DNA from: Verrucomicrobiota bacterium | GTDB lineage: Bacteria > Verrucomicrobiota > Kiritimatiellia > Kiritimatiellales > Tichowtungiaceae | Length of the DNA: 35,520 nucleotides | NCBI GenBank assembly: GCA_016342445.1 | Contig: JAEIOF010000008.1 | Coordinates: forward strand, 1-35,520 | Direction: 5' to 3' | Shown here: positions 8,998 through 16,682 of the stretch, in pieces | How positions within the stretch are numbered: the stretch's first letter is position 1 | Layout: every line of letters starts with the position of its first letter | The notes under the pieces: model-generated | The model's database searches: none | Seen by the model: the letters and a program-made list of their open reading frames with translations, nothing else | Told to the model about the DNA's origin: nothing | Made by a program: the position numbers and the translations under genes

Positions 8998-9870
8998 ATG
9001 AATAAACTGATTATAGGATTACCGAAAGGGAGCCTGCAGGAGTCCACCTACTCCCTGTTCGCGAAGGCCGGCTTTAATATCTCCGGCAGCTCGCGTTCCT
9101 ATTTTCCCTCGATCGACGATGACGAAGTCGAACTTCGCCTCCTGCGCTCGCAGGAAATGAGCCGCTACGTTGAACTGGGCATGCTCGATGCCGGGATTTC
9201 CGGACTGGACTGGATTGCCGCCAACGACTCCGATGTACAGATTATCTGCGACATGGTCTACTCCAAGGTGAGCAAACGCCCGGTTCGCTGGGTGTTGGCC
9301 GTGCCGCAAGACTCGCCCATTCAGTCGGTCAAAGATCTCGAGGGCAAACGGATCGCCACCGAAGGCGTCGCTCTGGTCGAGCGCTGGCTGGCCAAAAACG
9401 GCGTTAAAGCCGAAGTCGAATTTTCATGGGGTGCCACCGAGGTGAAAGTCCCCGAGTTTGTCGACGCCATCGTCGATATCACCGAAACCGGCTCCTCGCT
9501 GCGTGCGCACAATCTGCGCATTGTCGAAACGCTGATGGAGTCCTACACACAATTTTTCTGCAGCAAAGAGGCGTGGGCCGACGACTGGAAACGGGCGAAG
9601 CTCGAGAAAATCTCCCTGCTGTTGAAGGCCGCCCTGAATGCGGCGGACAAGGTGCTGCTCAAGATGAATGTGAGCAAAAACGATCTTCCGCAGGTGAAAG
9701 AACTGCTCCCCTCGCTGCATGCGCCGACGGTGAGCAGTCTTTCCGATGACGGCTGGTATGCCGTCGAAACGGTCGTGAACGAATCGGTGGTGCGGGAGAT
9801 TATTCCCGAACTGAAAGCCGCCGGTGCTGAAGGAATTATTGAAATCGGCTTAAACAAAGTGGTAGCGTAA
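8998..9870 (+). CDS. hisG: ATP phosphoribosyltransferase, long form
   Basis: First enzyme of histidine synthesis: joins ATP and PRPP to phosphoribosyl-ATP. From the ATG at 8998 the product has 290 residues and begins [14 protein letters not shown], the usual HisG start. It contains DAGISGLDW, the PRPP-binding region [12 protein letters not shown] and [22 protein letters not shown]. The C-terminal third (about residues 215-290, ending [14 protein letters not shown]) is the regulatory domain of long-form, histidine-inhibited HisG, so no separate HisZ is needed. GGAAGG lies about 11 bases upstream; an earlier in-frame ATG at 8971 has no support. No other his gene is nearby, so the pathway is dispersed. 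Confidence 0.97.
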
Positions 9871-9891
9871 GCGCACAAAAGGAACAGAAAC

Positions 9892-9981
9892 ATGGGTACC
9901 ATTAAGAAGTGGCGTAAAACAAAGATGTCCAACCACAAGCGGCGCAAACGCCGTCGCGCGGTTCGCCATAAAAAGAAATAA
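9892..9981 (+). CDS. 29-residue basic protein, AURKAIP1/COX24 (mS38-like) type candidate ribosomal protein
   Basis: A 29-codon gene with ATG at 9892, TAA at 9979-9981 and a good ribosome-binding site (AAGGAA, 9879-9884, 7 bases upstream). The product begins MGTIKKWRKTKM and ends AVRHKKK; more than half its residues are Lys, Arg or His. The KKWRKxKMxxHKRRKR pattern resembles the AURKAIP1/COX24 domain of mitochondrial small-subunit protein mS38 and the very small bacterial proteins annotated with that domain, which are thought to be ribosomal. It lies 21 bases after hisG and 14 bases before the TPR lipoprotein start, so is probably cotranscribed. The coding call is fairly sure from the ribosome-binding site and composition. 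The family call is from memory of the pattern. Confidence 0.7.
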   Translation: MGTIKKWRKTKMSNHKRRKRRRAVRHKKK

Positions 9982-9988
9982 AAAGGAC

Positions 9989-10075
9989 TGGAGTCATGAG
10001 ACATTGGAGTGCTGGAGTATTGGGGCTTATTAAACTCCCCTCCATTACTCCAACTCTCCATCACTCCACTGCTCC
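9989..10075. repeat. Inverted 8-base-period array: TGGAGNNN units facing CTCCANNN units
   Basis: From 9989, five octamers (TGGAGTCA, TGAGACAT, TGGAGTGC, TGGAGTAT, TGGGGCTT) are followed after a short centre by CTCCATTA, CTCCAACT, CTCCATCA, CTCCACTG and CTCC (10040-10075). The two sides are reverse-complement-like and can pair as an imperfect hairpin. The array contains the start codon of the TPR lipoprotein. Confidence 0.75.
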
Positions 10076-12056
10076 TTTTCACTCCGCATCCCGCAACGCA
10101 TGGGTCTTTGGCGCCACTGGGCTCCTTGCCCTGTGTATCGGCGGATGTGCGGCCCCTTCCTCAAAGCCTCTGCTGAGCATCAGTGCTCAAGCGGGGGCTT
10201 TGTCTCATTTCAGTCTCGGGTTGCTGGCAGAAGCCAGCGGCGATTCTATCGCCGCGCTGCGGGAGTTGGAAGCCGCGATCCAGCTGGATCCCGGCGAGAA
10301 AACCCTGTATGCCCCCGCCGCCGCGGTCGCACTGAAAACGGGCCAGCCGGACAAGGCACTCCGAATCGCACGGCAGCTCAAAAAACAGCATCCGCAATCG
10401 ATCGATTCCATTTTGCTTCTCGCCCGGGTCGCGGCATTAAGCGTTCAGCCCGCTGAGGCTGAAGTTCTCTTTAAGCAGGCGGTCTTAAATTTTCCGGATG
10501 ATCCGGAAACCCATCTGGGTCTTGCCCAACTTTTCCTCTCGCAGAAGCGAATGCCGGAAGCCATCCAGACTCTCGAATCCGCTATGGAGCAGCTGAACGA
10601 ACCTGTCGATCTTCTTCATCTGCTCGGAACACTGATTATTGAAAGCGCCCGCGAACAAACCGATCCGCAACAGGCGCAGAAAACGATCCGGCAAGGGATG
10701 GTTCTTCTGGAAAAAGCGCTCGAGATCGACCCGTCTGATCCGAAACGGTGGCAACAACTAGGCTATGTTTACCTCTCGATCAAACAGATTGAACCGGCGC
10801 AGGAGGCTCTCGAAAAGGCGCGAAGCCTGATGCCGTCCGATCTGGAACTGGCTCGACAAATTCTGGATCTGGCACTCCAGACTGGAGACTATGACCGGGC
10901 GCTGGAACTCTGCGACACCCTGCCCGCGCAAACAGGAGCCGATCCCGATCTTTGGCTTCAATATCTCGCAGATCAAACGACCGACGAACACCTCGACGAG
11001 CTGATTGCCTATCTTGAAGAACAACTTCTGCAAAAAAATCCGCCTGTTTTTTATTACGCTCAACTCAGTTCGATCTATCTGGATCACGAACGCTACGCCG
11101 AAGCGGAGAGCACTCTGCTCAAGGCGCTGGACACCCGCCCGGAAGACAACCGTCTGCGCACGGTGCTGGGCTACCTCCGCCTCCGGCAGGAAAAATTCGA
11201 CGAAGCCTACGCGGATTTCAACCAAATCCGAACCGAAGCACCGGAGGATGAATGGGCGCAGAATCCCTTCTTCGCATACAACTTCATGGTGGCGGCGCAA
11301 AAAAGTGGGCATCTGGAAGAGGCCGCCACAACCCTGGCAGCCACCCACACCAACAACCCGGTGGTGCTGAACGAGTACATGCACTCTCTGCTCACCGGAG
11401 AGTCGCCGGTTTCTCATCAGGCGGCAATTGATCTGCTGAACGCCTTCCACCGCATGAGCCCGGAAGCGGTCGAAGCCGTCTATTATTTGACCCTTCTTCA
11501 GGCCGAAGAGGAAGACTACGAAACGGCGCTGGAAAATGCCCGGCGCTTCGAGGTGCTGGCGCGGGATCAGGGAACAACCAATCTGCTGAACGGATTTTTC
11601 TATTATCAATACGGCTCACTCTATGAACGGACAGGTCAGTTCGAAGAGGCTGAAAAACAGTTTTTTAAGGCCATCGAAACGGGCGACCCGGAGACCGTCG
11701 CCGCCGCGCAGAACTACATTGCCTATATGTGGGCCGAACGCGGCGAAAAGCTCGAGCGGAGTCTTGCTCTCATCGAAAAAGCGCTGGCCGGCGAGCCGGA
11801 CAACGCCGCATTCCTCGACACGCTTGGTTGGATCTACTACATGCAGGGCCGCTACGAGGAGGCGCTCGAACAGCTGAAAACGGCCAATGGACTGATGGAC
11901 GGTGACCCGACTATTTGGGAGCATCTGGGCGACACCTATCAAAAACTGGGCGACCGGAATGAAGCTTCCAAACATTGGAAAAAAGCACTCGATCTCGCGC
12001 CGGACAGGCAACTCCTAAAGCGGCTGGAAAACAAAATCAGCCCAGACAGTCCCTGA
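9996..12056 (+). CDS. Tetratricopeptide-repeat outer-membrane-type lipoprotein
   Basis: A 686-residue protein of many TPR units, a scaffold for protein-protein contacts in the periplasm. A signal segment (WVFGATGLLALCIGGC) with lipobox-like CIGGC puts the lipidated Cys near residue 51. TPR helices then run almost to the end (for example LDPGEKTLY, LEIDPSDPKRW, FLDTLGWIYYMQGRYEEAL, TIWEHLGDTYQKLGDRNEA). The start is odd: the only ATG upstream of the signal (9996, AAGGA at 9983-9987) lies inside an 8-base-period repeat array, so about 30 N-terminal residues (for example ITPTLHHSTAPFHS) are repeat-encoded. No other start codon is evident before the signal segment. The palindrome copy at 11966-11980 encodes ASKHWKK. 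A role in envelope or secretion assembly is possible but unproven. Confidence 0.87.
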   Translation: MRHWSAGVLGLIKLPSITPTLHHSTAPFHSASRNAWVFGATGLLALCIGGCAAPSSKPLLSISAQAGALSHFSLGLLAEASGDSIAALRELEAAIQLDPGEKTLYAPAAAVALKTGQPDKALRIARQLKKQHPQSIDSILLLARVAALSVQPAEAEVLFKQAVLNFPDDPETHLGLAQLFLSQKRMPEAIQTLESAMEQLNEPVDLLHLLGTLIIESAREQTDPQQAQKTIRQGMVLLEKALEIDPSDPKRWQQLGYVYLSIKQIEPAQEALEKARSLMPSDLELARQILDLALQTGDYDRALELCDTLPAQTGADPDLWLQYLADQTTDEHLDELIAYLEEQLLQKNPPVFYYAQLSSIYLDHERYAEAESTLLKALDTRPEDNRLRTVLGYLRLRQEKFDEAYADFNQIRTEAPEDEWAQNPFFAYNFMVAAQKSGHLEEAATTLAATHTNNPVVLNEYMHSLLTGESPVSHQAAIDLLNAFHRMSPEAVEAVYYLTLLQAEEEDYETALENARRFEVLARDQGTTNLLNGFFYYQYGSLYERTGQFEEAEKQFFKAIETGDPETVAAAQNYIAYMWAERGEKLERSLALIEKALAGEPDNAAFLDTLGWIYYMQGRYEEALEQLKTANGLMDGDPTIWEHLGDTYQKLGDRNEASKHWKKALDLAPDRQLLKRLENKISPDSP
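11966..11980. repeat. Perfect intragenic palindrome copy (TTCCAAACATTGGAA)
   Basis: Perfect half-sites, in frame to give SKHWK near the C-terminus of the TPR lipoprotein. Confidence 0.9.
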
Positions 12057-12105: not shown

Positions 12106-12594
12106 TCATGGGGTCAGGTTGCCACCTTTCCCGTCTTCTTTTTCCTGCCGTTCAAATAATTCCGGATTCAACCCATCTAAAACTCCATCAATCCCGCGAT
12201 TAAGCTCCAGAATAACGTCAAGTCCTTGCGACAGATCAGGATCCAATCGGACAAAATATCGGCTGGCAAGAAAAGGAAGGTGCCAAACCTTTGGTGCCGA
12301 GCCAACGATGGTCATGATCGTTCCTTTTGGTACTTCACATTGAAATGCCATCCAAGACCTCTGGGGGATCCTTTCTGATTCCAAATATGCACGCGCCGTC
12401 TCTCTGCTGACTCTCCTATCATTAAGATTATAATATGCAGCCTCCAAATACACGGGCTGGATTATTTTGTACCGATTCCCATATTGTAGCTCTTCTGGAC
12501 AACTTGAGTTAGAGGAGATGACGCTAAGCGCAATGAAAAGCGCAAGCATGATTCCAGTACAGACTATTGCATAATTAAACTTTTTCATTTGCAT
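12106..12594 (-). CDS. Small membrane-anchored protein overlapping the RHS gene; candidate partner or immunity protein
   Basis: A 162-residue protein I do not recognise. The N-terminus has one hydrophobic segment (about residues 8-27, IVCTGIMLALFIALSVI), followed by a soluble part probably in the periplasm. It starts inside the end of the RHS gene (ATG at 12594; RHS stop 12585-12587), with a strong GGAGGAGG ribosome-binding site, so its translation is tied to the RHS protein. Small genes directly after RHS toxins are often immunity genes, which makes this a candidate; no immunity family is recognised. The C-terminal GGNLTP is encoded by a TGGGGTCAGG-like motif (opposite strand) that resembles repeat ends seen in other genomes, so the natural end may have been altered. 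Confidence 0.65.
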   Translation of the reverse strand: MQMKKFNYAIVCTGIMLALFIALSVISSNSSCPEELQYGNRYKIIQPVYLEAAYYNLNDRRVSRETARAYLESERIPQRSWMAFQCEVPKGTIMTIVGSAPKVWHLPFLASRYFVRLDPDLSQGLDVILELNRGIDGVLDGLNPELFERQEKEDGKGGNLTP

Positions 12595-15500
12595 GGCGTT
12601 GCCTCCTCCGGAGGACTTGGCTGCGGAAGTTTTTCAAAAGCTCGCAACATTTCTACAGCTACCGCCGCCCAGTACATCGGATACATCGAAGGCTTATTAA
12701 CCCGCCAGTCTGGGAATCCGGCCATTGTTGCCCAACCCACAAAGCTGTCATGCATCTGGCCAAACGTATAACCTGCCGGCAGATACCGCTCAATGAACTC
12801 ACTGATTGGGCCGCGTGGCGGCACTATGGTATCTGGACGTCCGACAACGCCAGATTCTTGCCAAGGTTGCCGAAACCAATAAAGCCCCATAGGATCAACA
12901 AAGTTGACGGGGTTATTTCCACAGAACACATATTGATTCAAGCCGCCTGAAATCCCAATGGGGTCTTTAGAGAGCCAACGACCGGTGACGGGGTCATACC
13001 AACGGGCACGGAAGTAGTAGAGCCCAGTTGCGGAATCATGCTCGCGGCCTTGGAACATATAGCGATTGCCGATTGCGGATTCAGTCAGTTCGGTGCCTGT
13101 CGAATTGAGAATCGTCGGGCACCCCCATGCATCGTACGAATAGGATTCAACGATATTTCCAAAAGAGTCAATTAGGGCACAAACGGTATTTAGATGGTCT
13201 TTGAGAGCGTAGCAGGTGTTCGTTCCGGTCGCGTTATAAATCGTGATGGCGAGCAGATTATCGATACCCGGCCCCCAAATGTACGAGCGAAGAATAGTTC
13301 CGCTTTCGTCGAGATCGGCCACGATCTGATTGCCATCGTAGACGTATTGCTCAACATTCGTTCCTTCGGTGCGCGAAGCGCGACGCCCCAGCACGTCATA
13401 AGAATATTCAACCGCGGATGTCGCGGATGAAATGGATGTGAGCTGGTATTGGCTGTTCCAGTCAAGGGAGAGTGATTCAGCGTACTCGGTTCCGAAATAC
13501 GAAACATTCGTCAGACAACCTGCCGCGCTGTATCCGTACTGCGCATTGGTGACGACGGTCAGGAATATTTCATTCGTTGCATACCCCATGTTTCCGGCCT
13601 GATCGCGGATGGCGGCAACGACCCGCTGGGTTCCCATGCCGGTGACGAAGGCGTCGAGCCAGAAGTTCGTACTGTCAGTTTCAGGCGTGACCGCCACTGA
13701 ATTGCTGACGGTTAGCTGGCCCCAGCGGTTGTCGGTGCCGATGGTCTCAGAGGAGTACCCTTGAACTTCCAATGTTCGGAAACTTTCAAATCCGTTGGTC
13801 GAGGTTGCAGTCCATGAGGCAAGGCGATTTCCAGCGCCGAGACTGTAATTAACCGAGCTGCCGGGATTTTGTTTAGTCAGGCGGTTGCCAGCAAGGTCAT
13901 AGCTATACATTGCGAACTTGGCAGGCGAGACACCTGCAGTACGAACTTCGGAAGTCAGACGGTCGAGGTCGTCATATTGATAGGCGGTCGAGATAGAACT
14001 CGACCCTCCAACTAGACGATTTGTGATCATTCCGGCGGCATTGTACTGGTAATTAAAGGAAAGGATGCTTGCGCCTCCGCTATTTCTCCAGTCGATGGAG
14101 GTGATACGATCCATGATGTCGCACTGGTATTCCGCGCGGAGGCTGGCGTTGCTGACTGTGGAAATCAAACCGTTATCGGGATTGTAGAAATACTGAAACA
14201 TACAATTCGTTGGAGGCGTTGAAATCAAAGTCACCCGCTCTGCGGCATCATATTCATAAGCAGTCGTGATGGAGCGCGGCCCTCCGAAATCAACGGAAGA
14301 ATTCGTGACGTTGCCGACGGGATCATAGGAATAGTTCGCCACGGAAGACACCGAAAACACGGAACTAGAAGATGAAACCGAGGTGAGCCATGAAGCGGAA
14401 TTCCAATCATTGGAAACCATGACGGCGGAATTTTCCAGGGTTTGGACAAGTCCGTTTTTAAGGTAAGTGTAGCGGTTGGTTTCATCGGGATAATAGACAG
14501 CGGCAAGCCGCCCGTCGCCAGTGTATTCGTTGCTGACGATGGTTCCGTCAAAACGGGTGATGGAGTCCACAAAATCTCCGACGAGATAGCGGATGGACAT
14601 CGTCTGATTTTCAACGTTGGTTACGGTTGTCGGACGGGCGAGCGGATCGAGCACATAGCTTTCAACGGGGCGGCTCAGTTCGTCTCTAATGTTGAGCGTA
14701 TTGAACTGCTGGTCAAAGTCATACGACACCGTCACGTTGGTGTTGCCAAGCTGTCGGGAAATCGCTGTAAGCTTTCCGTTAGGGGCATAGGTGTAGCTAC
14801 TTATTCGTCCGGCGCGGTCAACGTGATTGGTCACTTTGCCCAGCGCATTGTAGTCAAAAGTTTCGTACAAGCTGTCGGCATAATCAACTCGCTCAATCCA
14901 GCCCAACGGGGTAACGGTATAATCCGTTTCGCGTCCGCCGGGCAGTGCGCTGTTGGTCAGATGGCCGAGGGTGTCATACCCGAGGGTTATCGTTGGCCCA
15001 GTCTGCGGAACCACCGTTTGCGGATAGCCAAGGGCATCGTAGGCAAAAATCGTTGAATGCCCGTTGGCATTAGTCACTGCGGCGAGCAACCCATTGGTTG
15101 TATAGCTGTATCTGGTCTCTGCCGTTTCGTTACCGGAAAGATAAAGCCGTTCTGCTGAAGGCATCCCGTTCGTATATTCATACTCGGTTTTAAACCCCTC
15201 TGGATCGACAACGGACGTCACCAGCTGCCAATCCGAATGCCAAGTGGTTTCAGTCACATGATCAGGTTCTGCTGAAAGACCAAAGGCCTCCTCGGTTACG
15301 TTGTGAAATTCATCATAAAATCGATAAATTTTTATCCAGTTGTTGGTATCCGCATCATACGTTGTTTTCTGCTGAACATTTTTTCCGCCATCGTACACAA
15401 AGGTTACCTTTCCAGTCACCGCGTCGAACCACTCTTCCTGTACGCGACTGCTGTTCGGATCAATGGTGTAAACGTGTGCAAAACTGTTGCTGCTGTTCTC

Positions 15501-16682
15501 ATAGGTAACCACACTTTGATTATTCGACGAATCATAGCTCACGGAGTGCCCGTACAAGTGATCATCCGTTAAATACATCCCAGAGGCCTTACCCCCGGAA
15601 TAGCTGTAATAATAGTCATTTCCAACCGCATCCACCCTCTGCGTCAAAAGAAGCGATGTGTCATAGGCATAGGCTTCCAAATACTGATCTGAATCCACTT
15701 GTCGAACGGCCTGTGTCAAAACCCCTTCCGGAGCGTACTTAAACGATATCGACAAATTCGTTGCCGCTATTACGGAAGTTAACATTCCGTTTGAGTAGGC
15801 AAAATTCAGCGTGCTTCCATTACTGTGTTCCGCACAACTCAGCAACTGGTTGCTGTAGATCAGAGAGACTCCGCTTCCCCATTCGTCTGATATGGACTGG
15901 AGTGTCCCGTTTGTATCGAATAAATAGCTGACACCAGCAGGGAAGGACAAAACATGCATCCCATTAGTTTCTTCGGTCAACTTCCAGTTATTGTCCAAAT
16001 TCGAAGAATATTCACCAGAATCATATTTTAGAAATGAAAACCGCCTTGCATCCCCTGAGACAACGGTTGCGTTGTGATCTTCCCCATGAAATTCCCAATC
16101 ATAAGAATGCCGCCAACCTTGGCCTAGCGGGGAATTGTTTGTTGAAACGCTGTTATAATATCGGATGAAATCCAATGATACGTTGGGGGTCGGGATAGCG
16201 ATATCTGCCACGGGAAAATGATTATTTGCTGTGATAAAATTGATGGGTTCTTCTGTGTTTGCCTCACCAGGTTGTGGGTCAATAGGATCTGGGCGCGGTG
16301 TATAATCCCTGATCGGAAGAGTCCCAAAAACAGGCCCAGTTTCGTAGTAGATAGAATCATTTGTAGAACTCCCATCAACTGGAACCCACTTTATCGACAA
16401 TGACACTGATGAAGAAAGAGTATCATGTCCTATGGGGATCGGAGTGTAGTCACCTGCGATGATATTATTGTGACTGATAATATACGGCGGATAGACATCT
16501 GTATGCCATTCCTCATTATGATAACTGGTGTATATCGCACCATAGGTGCAGTTTGCAGGTTCCGAAAGTGGGTTTTGTAAATACACGTACTGCATAAGAG
16601 CAAACGCATTAACCGAGCAGAAAAGGGCAGACAGAAAAAGAATTGTTTTTAAGACAAGCACTTTAAAAAAACAAGATCTCAC
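12585..16682 (-). CDS. RHS/YD-repeat secreted protein with DUF6531-like N-terminal region and a unique 96-residue tail
   Basis: A 1365-residue RHS-family protein; such proteins form a hollow beta-cocoon that encloses a C-terminal effector. The start is GTG at 16682, overlapping the TGA of the upstream gene, with AAGGTGG upstream, and is followed by a signal peptide (LKTILFLSALFCSVNAFA). A DUF6531-like segment (EEPINFITANNHFPVADIAI, then YYNS and LGQGWRHSYDW) precedes many YD repeats (for example YDALGYPQTV, YDPVGNVTN, YDDLDRLTSEV). The RHS core ends GREHDSATGLYYFRARWYDP, then DPMGLYW near residue 1269. The last 96 residues (from FRQPWQESGV, with FGQMHDSFVGWAT and PSMYPMYWAA) are unlike the repeat and are the candidate effector domain, fold unknown. 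Three palindrome copies lie in the gene. Confidence 0.9.
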   Translation of the reverse strand: MRSCFFKVLVLKTILFLSALFCSVNAFALMQYVYLQNPLSEPANCTYGAIYTSYHNEEWHTDVYPPYIISHNNIIAGDYTPIPIGHDTLSSSVSLSIKWVPVDGSSTNDSIYYETGPVFGTLPIRDYTPRPDPIDPQPGEANTEEPINFITANNHFPVADIAIPTPNVSLDFIRYYNSVSTNNSPLGQGWRHSYDWEFHGEDHNATVVSGDARRFSFLKYDSGEYSSNLDNNWKLTEETNGMHVLSFPAGVSYLFDTNGTLQSISDEWGSGVSLIYSNQLLSCAEHSNGSTLNFAYSNGMLTSVIAATNLSISFKYAPEGVLTQAVRQVDSDQYLEAYAYDTSLLLTQRVDAVGNDYYYSYSGGKASGMYLTDDHLYGHSVSYDSSNNQSVVTYENSSNSFAHVYTIDPNSSRVQEEWFDAVTGKVTFVYDGGKNVQQKTTYDADTNNWIKIYRFYDEFHNVTEEAFGLSAEPDHVTETTWHSDWQLVTSVVDPEGFKTEYEYTNGMPSAERLYLSGNETAETRYSYTTNGLLAAVTNANGHSTIFAYDALGYPQTVVPQTGPTITLGYDTLGHLTNSALPGGRETDYTVTPLGWIERVDYADSLYETFDYNALGKVTNHVDRAGRISSYTYAPNGKLTAISRQLGNTNVTVSYDFDQQFNTLNIRDELSRPVESYVLDPLARPTTVTNVENQTMSIRYLVGDFVDSITRFDGTIVSNEYTGDGRLAAVYYPDETNRYTYLKNGLVQTLENSAVMVSNDWNSASWLTSVSSSSSVFSVSSVANYSYDPVGNVTNSSVDFGGPRSITTAYEYDAAERVTLISTPPTNCMFQYFYNPDNGLISTVSNASLRAEYQCDIMDRITSIDWRNSGGASILSFNYQYNAAGMITNRLVGGSSSISTAYQYDDLDRLTSEVRTAGVSPAKFAMYSYDLAGNRLTKQNPGSSVNYSLGAGNRLASWTATSTNGFESFRTLEVQGYSSETIGTDNRWGQLTVSNSVAVTPETDSTNFWLDAFVTGMGTQRVVAAIRDQAGNMGYATNEIFLTVVTNAQYGYSAAGCLTNVSYFGTEYAESLSLDWNSQYQLTSISSATSAVEYSYDVLGRRASRTEGTNVEQYVYDGNQIVADLDESGTILRSYIWGPGIDNLLAITIYNATGTNTCYALKDHLNTVCALIDSFGNIVESYSYDAWGCPTILNSTGTELTESAIGNRYMFQGREHDSATGLYYFRARWYDPVTGRWLSKDPIGISGGLNQYVFCGNNPVNFVDPMGLYWFRQPWQESGVVGRPDTIVPPRGPISEFIERYLPAGYTFGQMHDSFVGWATMAGFPDWRVNKPSMYPMYWAAVAVEMLRAFEKLPQPSPPEEATPCK
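13767..13781. repeat. Intragenic palindrome copy, one mismatch (TTCCAATGTTCGGAA)
   Basis: Lies in the RHS gene, where the minus strand reads FRTLEV. Confidence 0.75.
14401..14447. repeat. Two intragenic palindrome copies 32 bases apart in the RHS gene
   Basis: 14401-14415 is perfect (TTCCAATCATTGGAA, encoding VSNDWNS on the minus strand). 14433-14447 reads TTCCAGGGTTTGGAC (two mismatches, encoding VQTLEN). Confidence 0.8.

Follow-up and report, generated by a model that had tools for sequence, protein, structure and literature searches.

A dispersed family of inverted octamer arrays and its probable capture as N-terminal codons of a Verrucomicrobiota lipoprotein gene

The window, the whole stretch of 35,520 nucleotides that was analysed, represents an entire contig (G000:C182) of a 2.1-Mb parent assembly. 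Along the forward strand, hisG is followed by a small ORF encoding a basic peptide of 29 residues and then by the gene of a 686-residue TPR lipoprotein (Table 1). The hisG product is 77-89% identical to those of the 20 best loci, all of which are Kiritimatiellales/Pontiellaceae or Verrucomicrobiota records. The stop codon of the small ORF precedes the lipoprotein ATG by 14 nt, and its product resembles COX24_C below threshold (E 0.0022, 18.3 bits against a cut-off of 23). This ORF could easily be overlooked in annotation and is conserved among relatives. Beyond the lipoprotein gene, the reverse strand encodes a 1365-aa RHS-repeat protein (RHS_repeat, DUF6531; 12585-16682), followed by a 162-aa ORF (12106-12594) with no Pfam or NCBIfam match; the two are possibly an RHS effector and its partner.

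Table 1 Coordinates of the features surrounding and forming the octamer array in the window
Feature	Position	Strand	Evidence	Remark
hisG, ATP phosphoribosyltransferase	8998..9870	+	Pfam HisG and HisG_C	Upstream gene
29-aa basic ORF (MGTIKKWRKTKMSNHKRRKRRRAVRHKKK)	9892..9981	+	Direct reading	Also kept at relatives' loci
AGGA, likely Shine-Dalgarno sequence	9984..9987	+	Position and fold	Predicted partner is the array 3' end
5' arm	9989..10028	+		Five octamer-phase units: three TGGAGNNN, one TGGGGNNN, one degenerate
TPR lipoprotein gene, 686 aa	9996..12056	+	ORF list, TPR families, orthologues	First ~30 residues read as repeat-encoded
Palindrome centre	about 10029..10039	+	Sequence and fold	
3' arm, read as translated through	10040..10076	+		CTCCA at 10040, 10048, 10056 and 10064; CTCCT at 10072
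Signal-peptide hydrophobic core and lipobox (IGG/C)	10101..10148	+	Read directly; conserved in relatives	Cys51 codon 10146-10148

The array (9989-10076) is composed of TGGAGNNN units, a short centre and then CTCCANNN units. In its 5' arm the units start at 9989 (TGGAGTCA), 9997 (TGAGACAT, degenerate), 10005 (TGGAGTGC), 10013 (TGGAGTAT) and 10021 (TGGGGCTT), and four inverted repeats (I1-I4) cover positions 9984-10075. The RNA of 9976-10090 has a predicted folding energy of -39 kcal/mol; shuffled sequences average -23.2 (z -4.9), none of 200 folding as well, and the DNA fold of 9985-10080 gives z -3.2. No promoter-like site was found. Counted in the window by itself, the octamers are no more than moderately unusual: TGGAGNNNTGGAG matches six times with at most one mismatch, against 2.1 expected, and six matches were reached by 2 of 100 shuffles. 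The strong evidence for the array comes from genome-wide matches. Three TGGAG units with a period of 8 and at most two mismatches match 42 times in the 2.1-Mb assembly, against 0 matches for the reversed-pattern control, and the window element as a whole matches its own genome once, at itself.

The octamers belong to a family that extends beyond this genome. Palindromes composed of two TGGAR units, 8-38 nt and two YTCCA units match 61 times, overlapping registers included, in 14 of 58 relatives, and the everted order was absent from all 58 genomes searched. At the level of the phylum the pattern is found in 27 of 387 genomes, 21 of which belong to the same class by hand count. The unit consensus, derived from 503 units of 11 genomes, is TGGA-R-T-R-N. 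Its fifth base is genome-specific, being mostly G in G048, G003 and G008 and always A in G009 (G fraction 0.89 in G048 and 0.00 in G009). In the folds of 62 of 83 elements (167 units), TGGA pairs in register with TCCA. Bases 5 and 6 match their partners above expectation, an excess that needs caution because the partners were picked by folding, which favours matches. Bases 7 and 8 of the paired units show no covariation, with 61 and 38 matches among 167 against 66 and 43 expected. Neither arm is thus a recent inverted copy of the other. What is constrained is the motif with its period, not complete pairing, and selection for pairing of the full arms is not supported.

Other forms of the repeat were observed as well. 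In G001 (G001:C85, L193:1501-1649) a one-armed TGGAG array is built from a 40-bp higher-order repeat of five octamers, indicating that units expand in tandem. A variant dialect from another family, TGGARGYT, is present in three genomes (G051, locus L197; G194; G343), with 84 four-unit matches in G051. Viral contigs, considered as pointers to a phage origin of the family, contain 21 stretches with four units; a second arm in the family order is found in two only (L310 and L324), the arms are reversed in an IMG/VR contig (L321), and the remaining stretches are one-armed. The searches run over the open-licence PMC literature, a scope outside which most subscription papers fall, gave no earlier description of a TGGARTRN octamer family. 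Judging by titles and the starts of abstracts, none of the six papers containing one of the exact octamer strings deals with bacterial repeats of this kind.

The genomic positions of the elements follow a clear pattern. According to a home-made codon-usage caller, which missed the 29-aa ORF and misplaced the start of the window gene, 73 of the 83 elements in the fetched loci of 11 genomes are intergenic and the other 10 lie inside called genes. Of the intergenic elements, 43 are in co-directional spacers, 27 in divergent and 3 in convergent ones, while the other adjacent gene pairs of the same loci number 197, 39 and 51 respectively; the elements are enriched in divergent spacers (p 1.5e-5) and depleted in convergent ones (p 0.0028), counts that describe well-formed arrays because the loci were picked by pattern matches. 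Arrays prefer gene 5' ends. Gene calls by longest ORF had placed 41 of the 83 elements inside ORFs, and were replaced by the codon-usage caller because those ORFs seemed mostly extended or antisense.

The spacer between comF and accD provides a second site that can be followed across genomes. It measures 74-145 nt across 11 genus-mates and contains both arm motifs in ten of them, the exception being G007. In the sister family it measures 14-17 nt, with an arm motif in none of five fetched genomes; the comparison leaves out two further sister-family matches, and G000 has no accD match. By these spacers, the comF-accD element is old and has been retained while its letters changed. Two candidate associations were rejected: an array is present in none of 30 fetched loci of four-helix-bundle PF05635 genes, and within about 1.5 kb in none of 12 fetched Y1_Tnp loci, which were inspected for a link to Y1/RAYT transposases. 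In the window's own genome, one of four PF05635 places (C47, L308) was looked at and the array is absent there. PF05635, the 23S rRNA IVP-type four-helix bundle, is itself unusually abundant in Kiritimatiellia, being found in 51 of 58 genomes with up to 18 copies each. A recognising factor for the octamer was not found in this analysis.

The orthologous spacer between the small ORF and the lipoprotein gene was read in 11 genus-mates with a readable start. In eight of them (G002, G003, G005, G006, G008, G009, G012 and G013) the array is absent at the lipoprotein start, and the 130 nt past the small-ORF stop contain neither TGGAR nor YTCCA. Here a conserved (M)xxSRK/N segment directly follows the start and leads into the hydrophobic core. 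The distance from the small-ORF stop to the lipobox Cys is 164 nt in the window, against 94-96 nt in seven array-less genus-mates (in G003, which was left out, the script located no lipobox). Spacing counts were used for this comparison; a MAFFT alignment of seven spacers aligned the array-less rows poorly. The window retains the SD-ATG block, in which GGACTG..TCATG resembles GGGACTGTCATG of G012 and G006, and ahead of the signal-peptide core the gene is longer by about 84 in-frame bases (28 codons).

The sister genome G011 contains a full array at the same place, with the start ATG inside the array. Its octamers at that site are different, so the window tail is not conserved as protein; the encoded tails are MMSFKILQSSNIPLFQNSIVPL in G011 and MRHWSAGVLGLIKLPSITPTLHHSTAPFHS in the window. 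G000 and G011, the only two genomes with full arrays, are sisters (support 100/99), and because they share the site the insertion is probably older than this species. In addition, G007 and G010 have partial arrays within the same spacer. These orthologues show that the array at the lipoprotein start is an insertion. They are most simply explained by a single event in the ancestor of G000 and G011 followed by fast unit change, with other array pieces in G007 and G010. By eye, in comparison with empty sites that are not near-identical, no clear target-site duplication was seen at the lipoprotein or the comF-accD site. These results bear on an earlier note on this DNA, which had described an inverted octamer array forming a hairpin and had proposed that it probably inserted at the gene start. 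The array and its hairpin are confirmed by the unit positions, the inverted repeats and the fold against shuffles, and the proposed insertion is supported by the array-less genus-mates and their shorter spacing. The note had also named a conserved N-terminal extension shared by orthologues as the result that would speak against insertion; the comparison of orthologous starts found none, the tail of G011 being different.

Both empty and occupied orthologous sites, and dispersed palindromic copies, would also be left by a selfish palindrome of MITE or RPE type, moving by transposition into gene ends, surviving where the reading frame is kept and having no role of its own; in-frame insertions of this kind are described for Rickettsia palindromic elements, as far as the review covers them (PMC10969869). 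However, the copies studied here have only the octamer in common, with centres and unit order that vary by locus, and bases 7 and 8 of facing units match no better than chance. Moreover, arrays are absent from the fetched Y1-transposase and PF05635 loci, the comF-accD site is occupied genus-wide with shifting sequence, and the arrays avoid convergent spacers, where landing is usually safest. We consider a purely selfish element unlikely, although it deserves to be kept in mind.

The position of the start codon determines whether the array is translated. Ahead of the signal core a single ATG is in frame, that at 9996-9998, where units 1 and 2 join; translation could alternatively begin at an in-frame TTG at 10020, also within the 5' arm. 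Because the array separates the start from the signal core, translation from either codon must cross the array. A complete signal peptide would require at least some 20 repeat-encoded residues, and the net extension of the window protein relative to its relatives is about 28 residues. The consensus of the 3' arm, NYAYTCCA, is stop-free in every frame by inspection. The open frame across this arm is expected from composition alone and is not itself evidence of translation, whereas the absence of a later start is.

That absence also weighs against the array being an untranslated 5' leader with the true start downstream, in which case no residues would be repeat-encoded. Most of the arrays found in relatives do sit just upstream of a start codon, and the sequence leaves room for non-standard start codons. 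However, from the end of the array to the lipobox Cys no ATG, GTG or TTG is in frame, the ATG at 10100 is out of frame, and a later start would lose the signal core; an untranslated leader is accordingly quite improbable.

Folding around the start was compared among 12 genomes. Across -15 to +6 the window has a mean predicted unpaired probability of 0.11, lower than in any of the other genomes (0.26-0.63). Total folding energy near the start is ordinary (-50.4 in the window, -39.6 to -54.2 in the others), and for this reason the accessibility result rests on a single prediction window. The earlier note had stated that the sole ATG upstream of the lipoprotein signal lies in the first half of the array, which holds true with the nuance of the in-frame TTG. 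Its figure of about 30 repeat-encoded residues is near the net extension, and the hairpin that it envisaged over the initiation site agrees with the low predicted accessibility of the start.

Arrays run in frame into the N-terminus of at least 14 other genes, comprising 13 further ORFs and the G011 orthologue. Twelve of the 13 were picked by eye among 87 candidate frames and the thirteenth is L007, which had been dropped by the 83-element filter; all were run against Pfam/NCBIfam, and the count is a floor, not a rate. Six ORFs (L007, L244, L257, L259 and two in L290) have a prepilin motif (PF07963) right after the array. In the distant genome G048, a GDSL-lipase protein with a lipobox-like TTSC is array-fused (L250). 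The RimO protein of G003 (G003:C32, L272:2937-3100) has a 46-residue repeat-encoded tail, with twelve CTCCANNN units, before its TIGR01125 match. Array fusion is also found in a PAD_porph/agmatine-deiminase-like protein (L269; under NCBIfam curated cut-offs), in LarC (L299) and in an RluA-type synthase (L265). The starts of a GT9 enzyme (L241) and a methyltransferase (L285) are less certain and may lie in or just before the domain, and L285 would use TTG. For the RimO and deiminase proteins, the best solved-structure matches start past the array-encoded part. Seven of the 13 fusion proteins are expected to lose their N-terminus on export, which fits tolerance of the array codons, while the array-fused enzymes indicate that N-terminal removal is not required for it.

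Tandem slippage together with a chance inverted copy, giving a functionless repeat, is very unlikely to explain the array. The 40-bp tandem copies in G001 show that units do expand and the octamer count of the window is equalled by some shuffles, but polarity is strict (61 against 0), the octamer is common to distant families and gene 5' ends are preferred. A strong hairpin in the interval from hisG to the lipoprotein gene might suggest a transcription terminator or some other structured RNA of a known kind, but this reading can be practically dismissed, since the hairpin overlaps the coding start, the forward (coding) strand has neither a stem followed by a T run nor any terminator-like site in 9700-10300, and Rfam returns no known RNA family but only sub-threshold plant microRNA precursors, as is possible for any long hairpin.

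Three known systems offer points of comparison, each as far as the cited source describes it. TAACTGA direct repeats of marine Beggiatoaceae, Cyanobacteria and Bacteroidetes are located mostly a few nucleotides upstream of starts, some overlap protein ends, and a post-transcriptional role has been proposed for them (PMC4679880). By analogy, the window family would work most like these start-proximal repeats, since both have a short tandem unit, are patchy across lineages and lie close upstream of start codons; TAACTGA, however, is a heptamer direct repeat without predicted structure, whereas the window family has an octamer with variable positions, two folding arms and genome-specific spelling. 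Rickettsia palindromic elements are about 150 bp long, with a conserved family sequence and a conserved peptide (review PMC10969869). They are likewise dispersed palindromes in frame within unrelated genes (here the window gene and the 13 further ORFs), but TGGARTRN copies share the octamer only, sit at gene starts and have no conserved peptide.

REPs, which go with RAYT transposases, are 20-40 bp long, are tagged GTAG/CGTC, lie mainly downstream of genes and in co-directional or convergent spacers, and are reported in Verrucomicrobia too (PMC3733652). They resemble the window family as short intergenic palindromes with many copies and a proposed RNA role, whereas the window family forms longer, modular octamer arrays at gene 5' ends. 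By eye, the unpaired GTAG/CGTC end tag is absent from the window element and its immediate flanks, and the REP-like spacer preference is not observed, only 3 of 73 intergenic elements being convergent and 27 of 73 divergent. With the opposite gene context, no tag and no adjoining transposase in the examined loci, the window element is not a REP as described in that paper.

We favour, with a probability of roughly 0.7, a family of sequence-recognised hairpins that lie on or next to translation starts and at times become N-terminal codons through capture, a member of which entered the lipoprotein start in frame. An array with the arms TGGARTRN (5') and NYAYTCCA (3') would have entered the start region, probably in the ancestor common to G000 and G011, and left the frame open. 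The added ~28 residues would lengthen the n-region of the signal peptide, and signal peptidase II, cleaving before Cys51, would leave the mature lipoprotein unchanged; the insertion would be tolerated because the extra residues are removed together with the signal peptide. In the transcript, the predicted hairpin may hide the Shine-Dalgarno sequence and the start codon and so lower or gate initiation. Initiation is plausibly coupled to translation of the 29-aa ORF, the ribosomes of which would open the outer stem. The most probable role of the family is that of a hairpin, in RNA (or DNA), which is recognised by its sequence at the 5' ends of genes, and because the consensus 3' arm is stop-free in all frames, downstream genes can capture it as N-terminal codons.

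A wider proposal is put forward tentatively, as one that may well prove wrong. TGGARTRN hairpins might constitute a distinct class of bacterial cis-elements in which a putative trans-acting factor fixes the octamer, its polarity and the genome dialect; placed over translation starts, their stop-free 3' arm would be a standing supply of leader codons, repeatedly made into signal-peptide n-regions, prepilin leaders and enzyme tails. The family is apparently undescribed and follows unusual rules, including a fixed octamer, fixed polarity, genome dialects and free bases 7 and 8; a factor that recognises it is to be expected. Annotation pipelines may misplace the starts of array-fused genes. The lipoprotein gene illustrates clearly, before and after, how a non-coding repeat turns into a protein-coding leader, with array-less orthologues as the control, and parallel captures in several other genes and genomes accompany it.
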